A stretch of 37,203 nt of DNA from a virus. This document shows positions 17,056 through 36,661 of the stretch, in pieces (within the stretch, counting starts at the first letter, position 1; every line of letters starts with the position of its first letter). The notes under the pieces are model-generated. The model was not told the DNA's origin. It saw only the letters and a program-made list of their open reading frames with translations, and made no database searches. Made by a program: the position numbers and the translations under genes. The stretch covers positions 1-37,203 of the IMG/VR virus record IMGVR_UViG_3300009168_000077, one strand, 5' to 3'.

Positions 17056-19977
17056 TTATGCCCTCGTGAATGTCAACATCACGCCAAGAAGGTATGCGTC
17101 AACAGCAAGAGTATCTGATGCATCGTCTGGTTTACGGTATACACGTATTTGTATAAGTTGACTTGCTGCAGGACTTCCTGCTAATGTTATTGCAGTAGAA
17201 GCTGGACTTATATAAATATCATTAGTTGTGCCACCTGTGTCCTCAGTTTCAACAGCTGCTCCGTGAGCCTGATCCAATGCATCATCGTTAGCATAAGCTC
17301 GACCTTGTATGGCCCACACTACACCAAAATTAGTATCCGTTGCAGGATGTGACCAATAGAATTGTGCCGTCACAGTACCGCCGTTATAGTCTGATGGTGC
17401 CACAAATGTGCAGTTGCAACGCTCTCGGGTTGCTGAATCAAAAGGAAGGTAGTACATGTTAACAGCATTTGTTGCATACTCTATTTTGGTGACTGCACCA
17501 CATCCGTCAGTATTTGAAGGCCACATACCAGAAGATGACAGGAAAATCTGTCCAGCCAGTGATGCACCAGTCAGTCCATTAGTGCCGGTGATACCCTGGA
17601 AACCAGTGGCGCCTTGCGCACCAGTACAACCTTGACTGCCCGTTGCTCCTTGTTGTCCTGTAGCTCCTTGAAGTCCAGTGATACCTTGGAGGCCTGTAGC
17701 TCCTTGTAAACCAGTGATACCGCCACTGCCGGTGATCCCACCTGATCCAGTGATACCATCTGATCCAGTGATACCCCCACTACCTGTGATCCCGTCAGTG
17801 CCGGTGATACCTCCACTACCAGTGATGCCATCATAACCAGTAGTACCTTGATCACCAGTAGCTCCCTGAAAACCTGTTGCACCTTGTAATCCAGTACAGC
17901 CCTGCTCACCAGTAGCTCCCTGGAAACCTGTTGCCCCTTGATCTCCTGTTATACCTTGAGCGCCTTGATCCCCAGTAGCACCTTGGAAACCAGTAGCCCC
18001 TTGAAAACCTGTTGCTCCTTGCTCCCCGGTTGCGCCTTGTAAACCAGTTATACCTTGTGCCCCTTGACTACCAGTTGCTCCTTGCTCTCCTGTACAACCT
18101 TGTAGTCCAGTAGCTCCTTGCTCACCAGTAGCCCCTTGAAGCCCAGTAATACCTTGAGCGCCTTGATCTCCAGTACATCCTTGCTCTCCTGTTGATCCCT
18201 GTTGTCCAGTAGCCCCTTGAAGCCCAGTAATACCTTGAGCGCCTTGATCTCCAGTACATCCTTGCTCACCTGTTGCCCCTTGAAAACCTGTAGCACCTTG
18301 ATCTCCAGTACATCCTTGCTCACCAGTTAAACCTTGAGCACCCTGCTCACCAGTAGCTCCTTGATCTCCAGTACAACCTTGCTCACCTGTAGCTCCTTGA
18401 AGTCCTGTGATACCACCTGTACCAGTAATACCACCACTACCAGTTATACCCCCACTACCAGTAATACCGCCTGTACCAGTAATACCTCCACTACCAGTAA
18501 TACCCCAACTACCAGTAATACCTTGATCACCTGTAGCTCCTTGCTCTCCTGTAGCTCCTTGGTCCCCAGTACAACCTTGCTCTCCTGTTGCTCCTTGATA
18601 TCCAGTAGCCCCCTGATCTCCTGTACAGCCCTGCTCTCCTGTTGCTCCTTGATCACCTGTTGCTCCTTGCTCACCTGTGGCCCCCTGTAAACCTGTCACT
18701 GCTTGAAGTCCAGTAATACCCTGTGCGCCTTGATCTCCAGTGGCCCCTTGCTCTCCAGTGGCCCCTTGCTCTCCAGTGGCCCCTTGCTCACCAGTAGCCC
18801 CCTGTAATCCTGTAACTGCTTGAAGTCCAGTTATACCTTGTGCACCCTGATCTCCTGTACAACCTTGCTCTCCAGTAGCTCCTTGTAACCCTGTTACTGC
18901 CTGGTATCCTGTTATCCCTTGAAGTCCTTCTGCACCAGTCAAACCGGCCACACCAAATATGCCTGTGGTGCCCTGTACTCCTGTATCGCCCTGTGCTCCT
19001 GTTGGCCCTTGAAGTCCTGTAGCACCAAGCCCAGTACAACCTTGTGATCCTGTATACCCTTGTGCCCCGGTATCCCCTTGTTTATTATCAGGACCTGTTA
19101 TCCCTTGAAAACCAGTGGCACCTTGCTCACCTGTTGCGCCTTGATATCCAGTATCTCCCGAATCACCTTCAGTACCTGTGCATCCTTGCTCACCAGTACA
19201 TCCTTGTTGGCCAGTAGCCCCTTGTTGTCCAGTAGCTCCTTGAAGTCCAGTAGCTCCTTGAAATCCAGTGTCTCCTGAATCACCTTCTAAACCTGTTGCT
19301 CCTTGTAATCCTGTTGCCCCTTGTTGTCCGGTACATCCTTGCTCGCCTGTAACACCTTGATACCCGGTGTCTCCTGAATCACCTTCTAAACCTGTTGGCC
19401 CTTGAAGCCCTGTTGAGCCAAGTCCAGTAGCACCTTGTGATCCAGTATAGCCTTGAGCACCTGTTGCACCATAGGTGCCAGTCATACCCTGTGGCCCCGT
19501 GATGCCTAAAAATGATCCACCTGCAGTACCTGTGTAGCCAGTGACATCCAATGCGTTGTATATCTCAACCACGATATCAGGCTCATATTGAGGTATGGTG
19601 ATTGCTGATCCGGCATTCACGAAGAAGGATATACCATAGTACTCTCCGTGTACAGGAGCTGTAGCCAATGCTCCTGGATCAAATCTCCATTTTATATTCC
19701 AGTTGTCTGATGCTAATTGACTGGCAGCATAAGACAATACAGTGGTGGTATATAGATCAGTGTTAACTTTACTCCAACGCGCTTCGGTGGTAGTAGGAGC
19801 AACCAGTTTATATATGGTAGCCGACAATGTAGGCGTAGTGGTGATGGTAGTTATCTTGATCTCGATATCACCTTCAATCGTTGATCCTTCATTCACCTTC
19901 ACCACTGGAGGTATGTCACCTTCATCCAGGCGTATACCATATACAGAGTACGATAGTGGTACGATTTGATAGGACAT
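17056..19977 (-). CDS. Giant collagen-like fibre protein, 973 aa
   Basis: Three parts: an N-terminal beta domain (1 to about 155) that resembles the 144-aa protein encoded at 20428; roughly 650 residues of Gly-X-Y repeats (about 155-805); and a globular C-terminal head ([20 protein letters not shown]...; [16 protein letters not shown]). The repeat is mostly Gly-X-Thr ([16 protein letters not shown]). It has about fourteen GCT-G triplets placing Cys in the rod and two Ile/Ser-Gly blocks ([13 protein letters not shown]). Thr in the Y position is usual for bacterial and phage collagens and can be glycosylated. Trimers would form rods near 190 nm by the 0.29 nm/residue collagen rise. ATG 19977 has AAGGAG upstream. 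Confidence 0.85.
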
Positions 19978-31123: not shown

Positions 31124-32310
31124 ATCCTTATCCTCGCTGTCCTTGCTGTTTGAGAAGACATCAATGTATGCCATGCTCCAGATACCGCATCAATCATGTC
31201 GTCATGTGGATGTGTCATATCTGCACGGAAGGCTGCGCACTCCGCAAAAAACTCTTGTGTCCAATGTGAATTGACTACTTGTACTTCACCAAGTTTTGCT
31301 CGTGATATCCATGGCATTGCTCTTGCAAGCTTAGTACCTATTGGTCGTTGCGCAACTATTACATAATTCATTAGCCTCTTATCCCTTGCTAAATCATCTA
31401 CTACCGCTCTCTGTGCTGCTACATCCTCAAGCCCTATTTTCACACCTGTACCGTCTGCTAAAGCGTTACGTACTATAAGCTCCTTAAGATCCGGATATTT
31501 TGCTTTAACTCTTACAATGTCAGCTATTGTGAAATGTACTCCTGATATTAGACATAATGCCCCTACTGTCCAATCTGATTTTTTCTTGTCGGCAAATGCT
31601 AAATCATAATATCGTATACCTTCACTTACTGACAAAGGACTAATCATCCTGAATGTTGATGGATCAATAACTTCTCCAACAAAATCAACTACCTTACCAT
31701 ATATCTCCTGATCAGCAAAAACTCCTGAATATGTTTCTACAAGATGTTGTATATATGATTGTGGTAAAAAAGTATTTTCCATTGTCGTTTGTGTTATTAA
31801 CTTAACATTATCAGACATGGATAAATGATACACCCAATCTCTTCCATTAGGTGTTGTACATATTGACCAAGAAGAATCTTTTTCCTCTCGTATACGTCCT
31901 ATAAGAATATCAAAAAGCTTCCTATCATGAAATTCTCTGGCCTCATCTATAAACACGTCGCTTATATTCAAACCCCTTAGACTGTCAGGATTATCTCCAG
32001 ATCTCATAAGGATTTCTGTACCTCTTATTCTTATTGACATCTCTGTGCGATTAAGTATCCAGTCTTCACCTTGTTTTAAACAAAGCATATCTAATACTTT
32101 AAGCATTGTTGTAAGTATTACATCTCTAAGCACAGGATAAGAAAATGACACTATTAACTGTCGTCTTCCTCTTAGCGCATTTACAATTGACTTCACACAC
32201 AAAATTAGACTTTTTCCTCCTCCAACTCCAGAAAGAAATATTGTCCCCCAAGAAGTTGATTCTAAAAACTCGCGTTGTTTATTTGTTACTTTAAAATGAA
32301 CTGTAGACAC
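31120..32310 (-). CDS. terL: Terminase large subunit, 396 aa
   Basis: Packaging motor ATPase and headful or cos nuclease. With the start at GTG 32310, the Walker A motif is SGVGGGKS (27-34) and Walker B VFIDEARE has DE at 122-123. The nuclease domain shows YYDLAFADKKKSDWT, a C-terminal metal motif near THPHDDMIDA and basic segments between. An ATG-type start further upstream would overlap an inserted HNH gene by 89 bases. GTG 32310 overlaps it by only 20 but has only a distant AAGGA, so the start is uncertain. AT-rich composition compared with the portal gene. It is followed with ATGA overlap by the 92-aa gene. Confidence 0.93.
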   Translation of the reverse strand: MSTVHFKVTNKQREFLESTSWGTIFLSGVGGGKSLILCVKSIVNALRGRRQLIVSFSYPVLRDVILTTMLKVLDMLCLKQGEDWILNRTEMSIRIRGTEILMRSGDNPDSLRGLNISDVFIDEAREFHDRKLFDILIGRIREEKDSSWSICTTPNGRDWVYHLSMSDNVKLITQTTMENTFLPQSYIQHLVETYSGVFADQEIYGKVVDFVGEVIDPSTFRMISPLSVSEGIRYYDLAFADKKKSDWTVGALCLISGVHFTIADIVRVKAKYPDLKELIVRNALADGTGVKIGLEDVAAQRAVVDDLARDKRLMNYVIVAQRPIGTKLARAMPWISRAKLGEVQVVNSHWTQEFFAECAAFRADMTHPHDDMIDAVSGAWHTLMSSQTARTARIRI

Positions 32311-32818
32311 GTGAGTGATATTCCTTTTTTGCTTCTTTATATGCTTTACTTGCTTCTTCTTTAGTATTATATATACCAAGATAAATTATTTTATAACTAT
32401 TACATATCTGAGAAACATATCTATCACCATATTTCATAACACCTACAAATCCTGTTTTATTTCTAACATCTAATTTTCTATTCTCACAATTTTGTTTATT
32501 AGTACAAATTCTTAAATTTGATTTCCTATTATCAAGAGTGTCGTGATTTATATGATCTACTACGTATAAATCAGGAGCATTAGAAACAACTCTATGCATC
32601 TTTTTAGTAGTCCTACTTTTATTTGTATGGCTTCCGACCCTACAAGAAGCATACATAGTTTTTTTCTTTTTTTTATCAATACAAACTGACCACGCCCTAT
32701 CTATAATCTTGCCCAAATCTTCCTTATCTATCTTTGCAAAATATCCTTGAGTTAGTGGTATGTCGTAATAATCCCCACGATCTATTGGATCCCAAACTCT
32801 CTTATTATATTGTCCCAT
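32291..32818 (-). CDS. HNH homing endonuclease with AP2-like domain, 175 aa
   Basis: ATG 32818 has GGAGGTG upstream. A core of MHRVV...VVDHINHDTLDNRKSNLRICTNKQN forms the HNH active site, and the C-terminal GFVGVMKYGDRYVSQICNSY with LGIYNTKEEASKAYKEAKKEY is an AP2-type DNA-binding unit. The basic N-terminal part (DKKKKKTMYASCRVGS) contacts DNA. This combination is typical of free-standing phage homing endonucleases that cut a phage lacking the gene and so spread it. It stands directly before terminase and overlaps its start, suggesting insertion there. Strong AT-richness sets it apart from the genes upstream. Confidence 0.88.
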   Translation of the reverse strand: MGQYNKRVWDPIDRGDYYDIPLTQGYFAKIDKEDLGKIIDRAWSVCIDKKKKKTMYASCRVGSHTNKSRTTKKMHRVVSNAPDLYVVDHINHDTLDNRKSNLRICTNKQNCENRKLDVRNKTGFVGVMKYGDRYVSQICNSYKIIYLGIYNTKEEASKAYKEAKKEYHSRVYSSF

Positions 32819-33955: not shown

Positions 33956-34546
33956 TTAGTTGTTAGGATTATTTGGATCGTAGGCAGGTATGACAGGATA
34001 CTTTATATCCTTTAGACTCTCAGTACTTCCACATATAGTCACCTTCCATATGGCATCTAATAGGCCTATCAATCCTCTATTGGTAGTACATACAGACGTC
34101 CATGGCATATCATTCTCTATACGTACATAGTACCAGGTATATGGCAATTGGATGTTACTATACAGCATACTACTACGCTCAGTATCGTGCATCACTATAG
34201 CTTTAGCTATATTAGCATTTATGCACTGTTGTACTACCTGATACCGTTTATCTGCTGCACCACCATCCACGAATACCATATCACATGGTGGTAGTGATTT
34301 TGCTGATTCTACCTCATCTTCCACTATAGTACATGTCCAGCGTTTACGGCTATCTTCATCTATGGTGGCATATATGCTGTTATACCATTTTTCATTTAAT
34401 TCAAAGGTGGTAAGGTTTCTACCGTGATTTAACAGCCATGGAGTGCTATACAGGCCACAGCCAAATTCTACGTTATTGATTGAGTTTGTGTACTCTCGTA
34501 CTACTTCCATGACAGGTAGATGTGAGGCATATCCGGATCGTGACAT
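33956..34546 (-). CDS. SAM-dependent methyltransferase-like protein, 196 aa
   Basis: ATG 34546 has AAAGGA upstream. Motif I-like NNVEFGCGLYSTPWLL and FELNEKWYNSIYATID, followed by DMVFVDGGAADKRY, indicate a class I methyltransferase fold. The target is not shown: there is no DNA-methylase NPPY motif, so a small molecule, sugar, lipid or protein is more likely than DNA. It is one of three small enzymes of this kind in a row and ends in an Asn-Pro repeat (YDPNNPNN). Could be involved in modifying surface glycans or fibres. Confidence 0.72.
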   Translation of the reverse strand: MSRSGYASHLPVMEVVREYTNSINNVEFGCGLYSTPWLLNHGRNLTTFELNEKWYNSIYATIDEDSRKRWTCTIVEDEVESAKSLPPCDMVFVDGGAADKRYQVVQQCINANIAKAIVMHDTERSSMLYSNIQLPYTWYYVRIENDMPWTSVCTTNRGLIGLLDAIWKVTICGSTESLKDIKYPVIPAYDPNNPNN

Positions 34547-34550
34547 ATGG

Positions 34551-35099
34551 TTATCCTTTCAATTTGACACCAAAAAACCTGGTATCATATCCAGGACCTA
34601 AGGTGTTGGTGGATACGTTATATTGCCAGGTACTACAGGTGAGCTCAGGCAGGAAGGCTTCACGCATCATAAGAGGTGTAAGATTCTGGTAGTAATCGTT
34701 TGTGCCTATTGATGCTTCTGGATTATGTGTGGATGTACCGTGCTCAGCTCTACCTTCTCCGGCACAGGTGAGTACCAATAGGCCACCAGGTTTCAAAAGG
34801 TATAGCATAGCCTGTATGGACTTCAACCAGTTTCTATCATGCTCTAACATATCTGTAGATATGACAGAGTCATACGTATAGTACTTATCGGTAGTAGTCC
34901 ATTCATGCACGTAGCCTACGTGATCCACGTTATCGCCTGGAGTGATATCCAGTCCTTCGTATCGCACAGTGCTATCATACAGGTATCTATTTGTACCATT
35001 TACATTACGAGAGCCTACGTCCAGTACTTTTATGTTGCTGAAGTACTGAGGCATGATACGTTTTACGTAGGACATCCATTCGATGATTTCATTGTGCAT
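34551..35099 (-). CDS. SAM-dependent methyltransferase-like protein, 182 aa
   Basis: The product opens with a helix (EIIEWMSYVKRIMPQYF) and KVLDVGSRNVNGT, then GLDITPGDNVDHV, SVISTDMLEHDRNWLKSI and LYLLKPGGLLVLTCAGEG, a sequence of motifs that is clear for class I (Methyltransf_11-like) enzymes. The target is unknown. The ATG overlaps the last codons of a methyltransferase remnant and has only a weak AAGG further up. Its neighbours are other methyltransferases, so they may work in series on one product. Confidence 0.8.
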   Translation of the reverse strand: MHNEIIEWMSYVKRIMPQYFSNIKVLDVGSRNVNGTNRYLYDSTVRYEGLDITPGDNVDHVGYVHEWTTTDKYYTYDSVISTDMLEHDRNWLKSIQAMLYLLKPGGLLVLTCAGEGRAEHGTSTHNPEASIGTNDYYQNLTPLMMREAFLPELTCSTWQYNVSTNTLGPGYDTRFFGVKLKG

Positions 35100-35223
35100 G
35101 TGTATGAGCCTTCCAGGCCTTCAGTCTTAGTTTACCTATCTTCACATACTCTGCTTCCTTCTCTATACCTATTGCATCTATACCAAGTTGCTTGCACACT
35201 TCATATTTTTGCCTTCCACCCAT
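35089..35223 (-). pseudogene. C-terminal remnant of a DNA methyltransferase, 44 codons
   Basis: In a frame different from the HNH gene, the bases after it read MGGRQKYEVCKQLGIDAIGI then EKEAEYVKIGKLRL. The part 'CKQLGIDAIGIEKEAEYVKIGKLRL'-type is characteristic of the C-terminal SAM-binding segment of beta-class DNA methyltransferases ('G.TG.AC..LGR..IGIE.....Y...A..R'). The N-terminal half of such an enzyme is fused to the HNH domain just upstream. It is probably the leftover of the interrupted gene and may still be translated (AAGGA before ATG 35223). Confidence 0.6.
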
Positions 35224-35824
35224 ACTTCCTTCTTGCGTATTCTCTTGCCCTTGTCCTTACACATTCAGAGCAGTTTCTACCGCGTCCGTCTGGACGGATG
35301 TATTCTGTCTCATCAAGCAGGTGCCCTTGTGTGCAGTATTTATGTTTACTTTGTGGCCGTGGTAAAGCACCAAGTCCGCGTTGTACGTTTGTTTTAGGTA
35401 GGACTGCTTCCAAATGATCAGGATTTACACATGATGGATTTCTACATAGATGATCAATTTGGTATCCTTCAGGTATCTTGTTACCGCCTATGTTTTCGTA
35501 TGCCCATCGATGAGCATACACCTTCTTGTTTTTGATACGTATTTCCCCATAACCAACACCATTATGAGATCCTGTCCATATCCAGCATCCTTGAATAGAT
35601 CCGGTTTTGTTTACCTTATCTAAAAAGCGATCAAGAGTAGCCAACTCCGCAGGCGGATCAGTCACACATGCCGTGAATGTATCATCGTCCATAGTCTTCA
35701 TCACTTCTAAACAATCACCATGGTGCAACACATATGTTGGATCTTTCTTTACTACCTTTTCACTATCATGATCGATCCACGTAGGATCATCATCATCAAA
35801 CAGGCTCTCTGTCTTCAACGTCAC
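35201..35824 (-). CDS. DNA methyltransferase N-terminus fused to an HNH endonuclease, 207 aa
   Basis: Starts at GTG 35824, in a GTGA overlap with the previous gene. Residues about 30-58 (YVLHHGDCLEVMKTMDDDTF, ACVTDPP) match the start of a beta-class N4-cytosine/N6-adenine methyltransferase up to its catalytic DPPY, which here reads DPPA. From there the sequence becomes an HNH endonuclease: LDRFLDKVNKTG, GCWIWTGSHNGVGYGEIRI, AHRWAYENIGG, IDHLCRNPSCVNPDHLEAV and a Cys-rich end (YCTQGHL...CSECVR). The methylase is thus cut off at its active site, and its far end remains at 35223-35089. The HNH part probably inserted as a mobile unit, and the methylase activity must be lost. Confidence 0.75.
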   Translation of the reverse strand: MTLKTESLFDDDDPTWIDHDSEKVVKKDPTYVLHHGDCLEVMKTMDDDTFTACVTDPPAELATLDRFLDKVNKTGSIQGCWIWTGSHNGVGYGEIRIKNKKVYAHRWAYENIGGNKIPEGYQIDHLCRNPSCVNPDHLEAVLPKTNVQRGLGALPRPQSKHKYCTQGHLLDETEYIRPDGRGRNCSECVRTRAREYARRKYGWKAKI

Positions 35825-36414
35825 GGTTTCCTCGCATTCACGTATAGTCCAGGTGTGCCATAACCCTCAAATAGATATGAGTCATGTATCACGTATCCTA
35901 TATCCAGTAGCTCCTGTGTCAGTGTCTGCATCGTATGTCCACTGCAATGATACTGGCCAGGATCATCTGGAGCATCTATAGTGTCCGGAGAGTCCATGTG
36001 TGTCTGCCAGCCATACAATGTGTACATGTACCATTTACGTTGAGCAGTTGTGATCGGTGATAGCAGTATACGCATGATGGCATCCAGATCAGGCATAGTC
36101 AGGAATAGCATACCGCCTGGTTTCAAGACTCTATACCATTCATACAAGGCTCTATGTGCCTTACGTATTGATAGATGCTCCAGGCTGTGACTACTGTGTA
36201 CAATGTCAACCGTGTTATCAGCGTATGGTAGTTTACACATGTCAGCATTGATGACACCTGGTGCTACGGTGTATTTATCTATACCTATCCATCCTGGACG
36301 CACTGCACCACCACAGCCTACATCCAGGCATAGAGTTGATCCGTCTACGTTGTCCGCAAACATCTTATGCTGCGTTTCTATGAGGAGATTACGGTTGGTG
36401 ATTGGATCTGTCAT
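35821..36414 (-). CDS. Methyltransf_11-type SAM methyltransferase, 197 aa
   Basis: ATG 36414 has AAGG eight bases upstream. A clear class I motif set: LCLDVGCGGAVRPGWIGIDK, then VINADMCKLPYADNTVDIVH, SSHSLEHLSIRKAHRALYEW and RVLKPGGMLFLTMPDL. The C-terminal part ends YGTPGLYVNARKP. No DNA-methylase signature, so a small molecule or glycan target is likely. Its start sequence ATGACAGATCCAATCACC is identical to that of the gene upstream (36661), part of a repeated translation-start module. Confidence 0.85.
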   Translation of the reverse strand: MTDPITNRNLLIETQHKMFADNVDGSTLCLDVGCGGAVRPGWIGIDKYTVAPGVINADMCKLPYADNTVDIVHSSHSLEHLSIRKAHRALYEWYRVLKPGGMLFLTMPDLDAIMRILLSPITTAQRKWYMYTLYGWQTHMDSPDTIDAPDDPGQYHCSGHTMQTLTQELLDIGYVIHDSYLFEGYGTPGLYVNARKP

Positions 36415-36661
36415 TTTGCATACCTTCAGCCATTTGGCGTGCATGTGCTGATTCTATAGGATGCTCGCTGAATAAGTGTGTAAGCATCCATTCATCATCA
36501 TTTACAGGAAGAATTTCTGGATGTTTTTGTTGTATATACTTAAGAGCGCTTTCATATGGACTCATATTATAATCTATATCAATCTGATTATGTAGTGACA
36601 ACAACCATTCATCCAGCGCCTTATCCATTGGTGTATGTATTGGGGTGATTGGATCTGTCAT
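36389..36661 (-). CDS. Unknown protein, 90 aa
   Basis: ATG 36661 follows AAAAGGTATAAA and overlaps the end of the Eco57I-type methyltransferase as ATGA. The first 18 coding bases equal those of the next gene. The product (MTDPITPIHTPMDKALDEWL..., SPYESALKYIQQKHPEILPV, HARQMAEGMQNDRSN) is acidic and helical, with no motif I recognise. Its end overlaps the next gene's start by 26 bases. It links the methyltransferase to the row of small SAM enzymes. Confidence 0.6.
   Translation of the reverse strand: MTDPITPIHTPMDKALDEWLLSLHNQIDIDYNMSPYESALKYIQQKHPEILPVNDDEWMLTHLFSEHPIESAHARQMAEGMQNDRSNHQP

Follow-up and report, generated by a model that had tools for sequence, protein, structure and literature searches.

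An HNH nuclease gene lodged at the catalytic motif of a viral DNA methylase gene, with the middle of the methylase missing

How does an HNH nuclease gene come to stand at the catalytic motif of a DNA methylase gene, and what has become of the methylase? The question arises from a linear IMG/VR virus record of 37.2 kb, a metagenomic virus contig that was analysed here over its whole length of 37,203 nucleotides (hereafter, the window). A preliminary description, made from the sequence by itself, had proposed that an HNH enzyme lodged at this motif and left the far end of the methylase behind in another frame, and our profile searches bore this out, with phrog_67 matched at both ends and phrog_826 between them (Table 1).

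The chimaeric gene and the two methylase remnants

The open reading frame at 35201-35824 (minus strand) comprises a 58-residue methylase 5' end, which runs up to VTDPP and is followed, without a change of frame, by an intact HNH_3 nuclease; its translation reads VTLKTESLFDDDDPTWIDHDSEKVVKKDPTYVLHHGDCLEVMKTMDDDTFTACVTDPP as far as the joint and AELATLDRFLDKVNK...CWIWTG...IDHLCRNPSCVNPDHLE...KAKI from there to the stop. In a PHROGs search, stub residues 22-58 matched the phrog_67 DNA methyltransferase (E 1e-7), as did the 44-aa frame downstream of the HNH (positions 318-345, E 2e-4). This +1 frame opens before the HNH stop and reads MGGRQKYEVCKQLGIDAIGIEKEAEYVKIGKLRLKAWKAHTHAQ up to its own stop. 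When the contig was searched with phrog_67 itself, an N-terminal piece at 35651-35857 (positions 84-151, E 2e-10) and a C-terminal piece at 35095-35199 (positions 318-352, 35 codons, E 2e-5) were returned, both on the minus strand and in order, and positions 152-317 (about 166 model positions) found no match anywhere in the contig. The PF01555 match was limited to the C-terminal remnant.

An intact methylase (L001) was found that matches both remnants, in order and at 67% each, and neither remnant points to an unrelated family, both being phrog_67. Overall, L001 fits phrog_67 positions 125-344, with some 275 residues between its two remnant-matching ends. Hence the wording that the methylase was replaced and not simply interrupted is upheld: about 166 positions of the model are gone, or about 275 residues by comparison with L001. 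The stub protein also shares 56-61% identity with PotUPM1, PP9W2, and BUCT618, and its DNA aligned to that of L001 with a score of 78 (best of 200 shuffles, 35), including 20 consecutive identical bases. For the C-terminal remnant, 16 of 24 residues are identical to the L001 C-terminus, with methylase homology secure from CKQLG onward; at the DNA level the alignment to L001 is weak (score 37 versus a shuffle maximum of 42), and the identification rests on the protein match. Hydra, Sedona, Apex, and 4A were rejected as stub-containing homologues, the alignment showing free-standing HNHs that carry no methylase sequence.

The C-terminal SAM-binding pattern that was said to survive did so in part: the phrog_67 C-terminus is kept, with its IGIE region present, but no SAM motif I (FxGxG) can be recognised there. 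With the DPP also lacking its aromatic residue, the survivors therefore amount to a truncated motif IV and the IGIE region, with no SAM-binding domain. Here, motif IV, TRD, and SAM motif I do not stand together in one protein as in a functional N6/N4 methylase, and what we find is a remnant only.

As for the nuclease, its PF13392 score was 49.5 bits (curated cut-off, 24.8), and residues 62-200 of the reading frame matched the phrog_826 HNH with an E of 3e-43. On inspecting the conserved core (DH..C....C.NP.HL..), we noticed that the protein (P0001) keeps all ten invariant columns of a 36-sequence alignment, these being C80, W81, W83, G85, G93, H125, C127, C132, H137, and N146. The alignment-based structural model gave a pLDDT of about 93-97 across the HNH core and about 50 across the stub, and a single-sequence prediction gave 34. 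The nearest solved folds identified with Foldseek were I-HmuI and I-PpoI, which are weak matches (E 0.02).

The chimaeric gene starts with a GTG that is preceded by GAGGA (GAGGAAACC) and overlaps the upstream gene by four bases at its stop (35821). No usable start was found for the HNH on its own, the in-frame candidates after the DPP being only a TTG at 35644 (no spacing) and a GTG at 35521 (inside the domain). Lacking a start signal of its own, the HNH must therefore be read from the methylase start, and its expression as a fusion protein is predicted. At the opposite end, the 3' remnant includes GGAAGG, the likely ribosome-binding site from which the next gene is translated, and this scrap was probably kept because the start region of that overlapping gene lies within it. 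A programmed +1 frameshift from the HNH into the C-terminal remnant at GCA AAA ATA TGA was considered and rejected, as its product would still lack the methylase middle; to our knowledge, this sequence is no slippery motif.

Table 1. Features of the interrupted methylase locus (window coordinates).
Feature	Position	Strand	Basis or remark
Upstream neighbour, class I SAM methyltransferase (Methyltransf_11)	35821..36444	-	Domain match; stop overlaps the chimaeric start codon (GTG)
5' remnant of phrog_67 N6/N4 DNA methylase, residues 1-58, ...VTDPP	35651..35824	-	phrog_67 match
HNH_3 nuclease, residues 59-207 and stop, in frame with the stub	35201..35650	-	PF13392, phrog_826
Overlap of HNH 3' end and methylase frame	35201..35223	-	ATG at 35223 behind AAGGAAGT
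Methylase 3' remnant, +1 frame relative to the HNH	35089..35223	-	Homology recognisable at 35095-35199 (CKQLGIDAIGIEKEAEYVKIGKLRLK)
Downstream neighbour, SAM methyltransferase (phrog_32762)	34551..35099	-	Start codon (ATG) overlaps the stop of the 3' remnant

Around the broken methylase (33956-36444), upstream of the terminase genes, there are about three further SAM-methyltransferase-like genes (Methyltransf_11, Methyltransf_23/phrog_32762, and a weak Methyltransf_24). A second HNH gene, which belongs to another family (phrog_99), lies at 32291-32818 (minus strand) directly before the large terminase, whose start it overlaps; its GC is 0.30 as against 0.45 for the window, it is missing at that place in the relative L008, and it is probably a recent arrival. 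Farther away, 17056-19977 (minus strand) encodes a 973-aa tail fibre with numerous collagen-like repeat matches. A DNA search of 50,697 phage records revealed no relative of the studied stretch, and the use of P0001, the neighbouring methyltransferase, the terminase, and the portal as queries against viral contigs produced one distant methylase (L001) along with L008 and L027. No empty allele from a close relative was found among these, the terminase and portal relatives (L008, L027) being short contigs that end before the locus.

The insertion point and the sister HNH genes

At its left joint, the window reads GTG ACT GAT CCG CCT/GCG GAG TTG GCT ACT CTT GAT CGC, where the uninterrupted relative L048 has GTG ACT GAT CCG CCG TAT GGG, and similarity to other HNHs starts at about E60-L61, one or two codons past the DPP (GMA6, KLSTWDRLLSNVNK; window, ELATLDRFLDKVNK). 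Motif IV is uninterrupted in 114 of the 122 fetched loci that contain the stub region, and among about 100 phrog_67-family members fetched, 96 matches read DPPY. Two apparently complete phrog_67-like methylases, in L069 and L107 (IMGVR_UViG_3300032177_001457), read DPPA, and a second methylase of L107 reads DPPG. The earlier statement that the active-site Tyr becomes Ala therefore needs qualifying: methylase homology does end at the DPP, but Ala59 is ambiguous and may be either native to the methylase, with DPPA as its last residues, or derived from the insert.

The nearest relatives of the window HNH, at 57-58% identity, are those of L033 (IMGVR_UViG_3300015360_000112), L160 (3300007523_000144), and L161 (3300032462_000089), and in a tree of 95 HNH sequences these form a clade with that of the window (support 100/98). 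L160 and L161, with 3 differing bases over 6.4 kb, were counted once, and the clade provides the window with one independent partner. While L033 was found by a stub-profile scan in which methylase motifs were required, L160 and L161 came from a scan with the HNH only, whose top ranks were L033, L160, and L161 (100%, 94%, and 94%) with no others above 60%; the association of HNH and methylase is therefore not only a product of ascertainment. Of about 77 further HNH loci, none lies next to such a methylase; three have one at all, and there it is no nearer than about 1.5 kb.

In all three relatives (L033:2891-4705, L160:2882-4567, and L161), a methylase stub is followed by the HNH and then by a complete methylase with its own, second 5' end (SYLLQGDSYDWLKKIPENSMDSVVCDPPYLLNFMGK...DPFMGSGSTGKA). 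In L033, the stub MIYQGDCLEVMKTLPDNSVDALVTE stands directly before the HNH with the break inside the Asp codon of DPPY (VT-D/PPY), and here the resident-type sequence is GTGACTGAYCCNCCNTAY and the carried second copy TGCGACCCTCCGTACC. These loci thus share with the window a sister HNH, the same methylase family, an insertion at motif IV, and a methylase frame that is +1 relative to the HNH, the complete methylase of L033 starting inside the HNH 3' end as does the remnant frame of the window. Unlike the window, with its in-frame HNH fusion and its gutted methylase, they keep a complete methylase downstream and have the HNH out of frame with the stub, with that of L033 and L160 starting at its own ATG and not including the stub. 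Moreover, the insertion points (window, after ...GAT CCG CCT/GCG; L033, GTG ACT GA/G AAC) lie 7 nt apart, that of the relatives being upstream, and the spacers of the window and L033 are unrelated. A promoter in the L033 spacer, where a TATAAT is present, was dropped when the promoter scan gave no support.

More conspicuously, L033 and L160 have unrelated upstream sequence and stubs with just 62% protein identity, but from GAGAACACTTGC, at the Asp codon of DPPY, their DNA agrees at 39/40 per block (about 97%) and keeps an identity above 85% across the HNH and the beginning of the methylase. As proteins, the two HNHs share 94% of their residues; the methylases behind them share 62% over their full length, a low value that is due to variable segments. 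Given this identity jump at the Asp codon behind diverged stubs, one element therefore broke two diverged methylase genes at the same codon. Kin of the window HNH are accordingly found at a fixed site, motif IV of phrog_67, in unrelated phages, and an insert more alike than its surroundings is seen for L033 versus L160, that is, for the relatives and not for the window itself. The idea that the conserved DPPY codons serve as the target, already put forward in the preliminary description, gains strength from this sister clade, whose insertions lie in the same motif at a distance of 7 nt.

How the locus may have arisen

Homing enzymes of the HNH type make a nick or a cut at a conserved site, and repair then copies them into it. 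We think it likely that a homing-type HNH gene that targets motif IV entered this methylase gene and became fused to the 5' stub, and that the middle of the methylase was lost. On this reading, a small HNH clade would target the motif-IV (VTDPPY) codons of phrog_67 methylase genes; the 5' stub would stay joined in frame to the HNH and supply its ribosome-binding site and its start codon, a GTG coupled to the gene before it; all that lay from the catalytic motif to SAM motif I, both included, would be lost, and the methylase would be dead. With its conserved residues kept, the HNH could nick or cut the intact methylase alleles of co-infecting phages, whose repair would copy the HNH in; cleavage of intact VTDPPY DNA by this particular HNH is presumed. 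Since the relatives keep a complete methylase downstream, a later deletion of the middle from an L033-like state would be favoured, and loss at insertion would be an equally simple route. The +1 remnant frame and the ATG at 35223, both as in L033, fit a single later deletion without proving one.

Such a history can be taken one step further, into what we regard as possible but rather doubtful, namely that the clade represents a homing element of phages that replaces gene ends, with the window as a derived copy that lost the restored methylase. The HNH would then travel with a replacement methylase 5' end overlapping its own 3' end, the DPPY codons of the resident gene would be cut, the resident 5' stub would be left, and an uncuttable methylase would be restored. 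A plainer alternative for L033 would be two tandem methylases, as in L107, of which the first was gutted.

Against targeting by the HNH, the rival that matters is untargeted recombination, by which a free-standing HNH gene was joined at motif IV in a chance illegitimate deletion event. Genes of the phrog_826 type are commonly free-standing, with helicase/exonuclease (CMP1), polymerase (GMA6), or capsid genes (Barsten) as neighbours, and the deleted middle and the out-of-frame right junction of the window would suit such an accident. Yet a sister HNH lineage sits at the same motif in unrelated backbones, which the other HNH loci do not, and the L033/L160 identity step falls exactly at the Asp codon; this recurrence at one codon pair within the clade argues against chance, which we hold to be unlikely. 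An assembly chimaera of two viral contigs, conceivable in a metagenomic virus contig, would need two false joins that happened to place an HNH between the in-order ends of one family while overlapping gene starts and stops were kept at both ends, and the left-junction layout recurs in three independent contigs, all of which makes it highly improbable.

Two further rivals would leave a function with the methylase sequence. The stub is unbroken, shares the frame of the HNH, and is favourably placed for translation, as would be expected of a domesticated fusion in which it is kept as a functional N-terminal piece (e.g., for DNA binding or regulation). However, its pLDDT is about 50 versus 93 or more for the HNH core, the stub alone has neither target recognition domain nor SAM pocket, and the HNH of L033 and L160 is read without any stub, and so we consider a domesticated fusion very unlikely. 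Least credible of all is a self-splicing element, a group I intron or an intein with an HNH that is spliced out to give a working methylase. HNH genes within introns frequently continue the reading frame of the exon before them, and the phrog_67 methylase family has a known intein (Atcoo gp55), but an Rfam scan of 34400-36600 with E up to 1 gave no intron match, the 450 nt are taken up almost entirely by HNH codons, which leaves no space for an intron core, and Pfam revealed no intein domain. The HNH stop at 35201 and the frame change before the C-terminal remnant speak against intron and intein alike, and the splicing product would still be a methylase without its middle. The Rfam scan for tRNAs found nothing relevant.

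Known insertions and the biology of the methylase family

Insertions documented in this methylase family include an intein, a lone LAGLIDADG, and the out-of-frame HNH of ShiLan (PMC11855218); ShiLan gp65 could be aligned with the phrog_67 methylases of the present analysis. Like the insert of the window, the ShiLan domain and the Pacc40 insertion of mycobacteriophage methylases are HNH genes with neither intron nor intein (PMC11855218). The ShiLan HNH is hidden out of frame in a continuous methylase frame at GTALKPS/FEPIV, whereas the window HNH stands in frame at DPP(Y) in a destroyed gene and, given the other site, the in-frame HNH, and the broken methylase, is not a ShiLan domain. Along the aligned methylase, the intein falls at WLYG/SGFPKS and the LAGLIDADG of Kersh just behind DPPYNLSFMAKPWDAL. 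Kersh gp68 (L012:1468-3444) resembles the window in that a nuclease of the homing type stands close to the DPPY of a phrog_67 methylase, just after it and no more than about 20 residues away, but this is an in-frame LAGLIDADG and not an HNH, and the methylase is otherwise complete; the gene is annotated as a methyltransferase only. In L032 (ShiLan gp65/gp67) and L010/L011 (PhesterPhotato gp66/gp69 and Renaud18 gp76/gp78), the annotation assigns the methylase C-terminus (motif I region) to a small gene of its own, so that the methylase gene is also split near its 3' end.

Among T4-type homing endonuclease genes that split other genes are mobE in Aeh1 nrdA and mobA in T4 gene 60 (PMC2988022). 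Similar to the window, these are HNH genes in a functionally critical region that use the transcription and translation of the host gene (PMC2988022), though both gene halves persist and work there, while in the window the middle is missing. The closest known parallel to L033 is provided by the fungal mitochondrial mORFs with a foreign gene end, as in Allomyces and Glomus atp6, where a homing frame lies in a gene of which one end is present twice (PMC3630166). The replaced end is the 3' one in the fungi and, as a mirror image, the 5' one in L033, and in the window no replacement end is left. In the literature searched, we found no phage case of a homing element with a replacement gene end.

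Insertion of a homing endonuclease gene in phage methylases is thus already known from ShiLan, and it is the site and the in-frame, gene-replacing form that are new here. Counting the intein, the LAGLIDADG, ShiLan, and the motif-IV HNH, at least four separate methylase positions have been used by invading elements, and judging from the sister loci, the positions of the motif-IV HNH clade look like a landing site that has been used more than once, not like a chance event. Because the codons of the catalytic motif are the hardest for a phage to change, a nuclease homing on DPPY would have an escape-proof, family-wide target. The alleles with stub, HNH, and methylase offer a direct test of homing-gene movement within the essential motif of the target, and they also bear on when a homing gene kills and when it spares its target gene.
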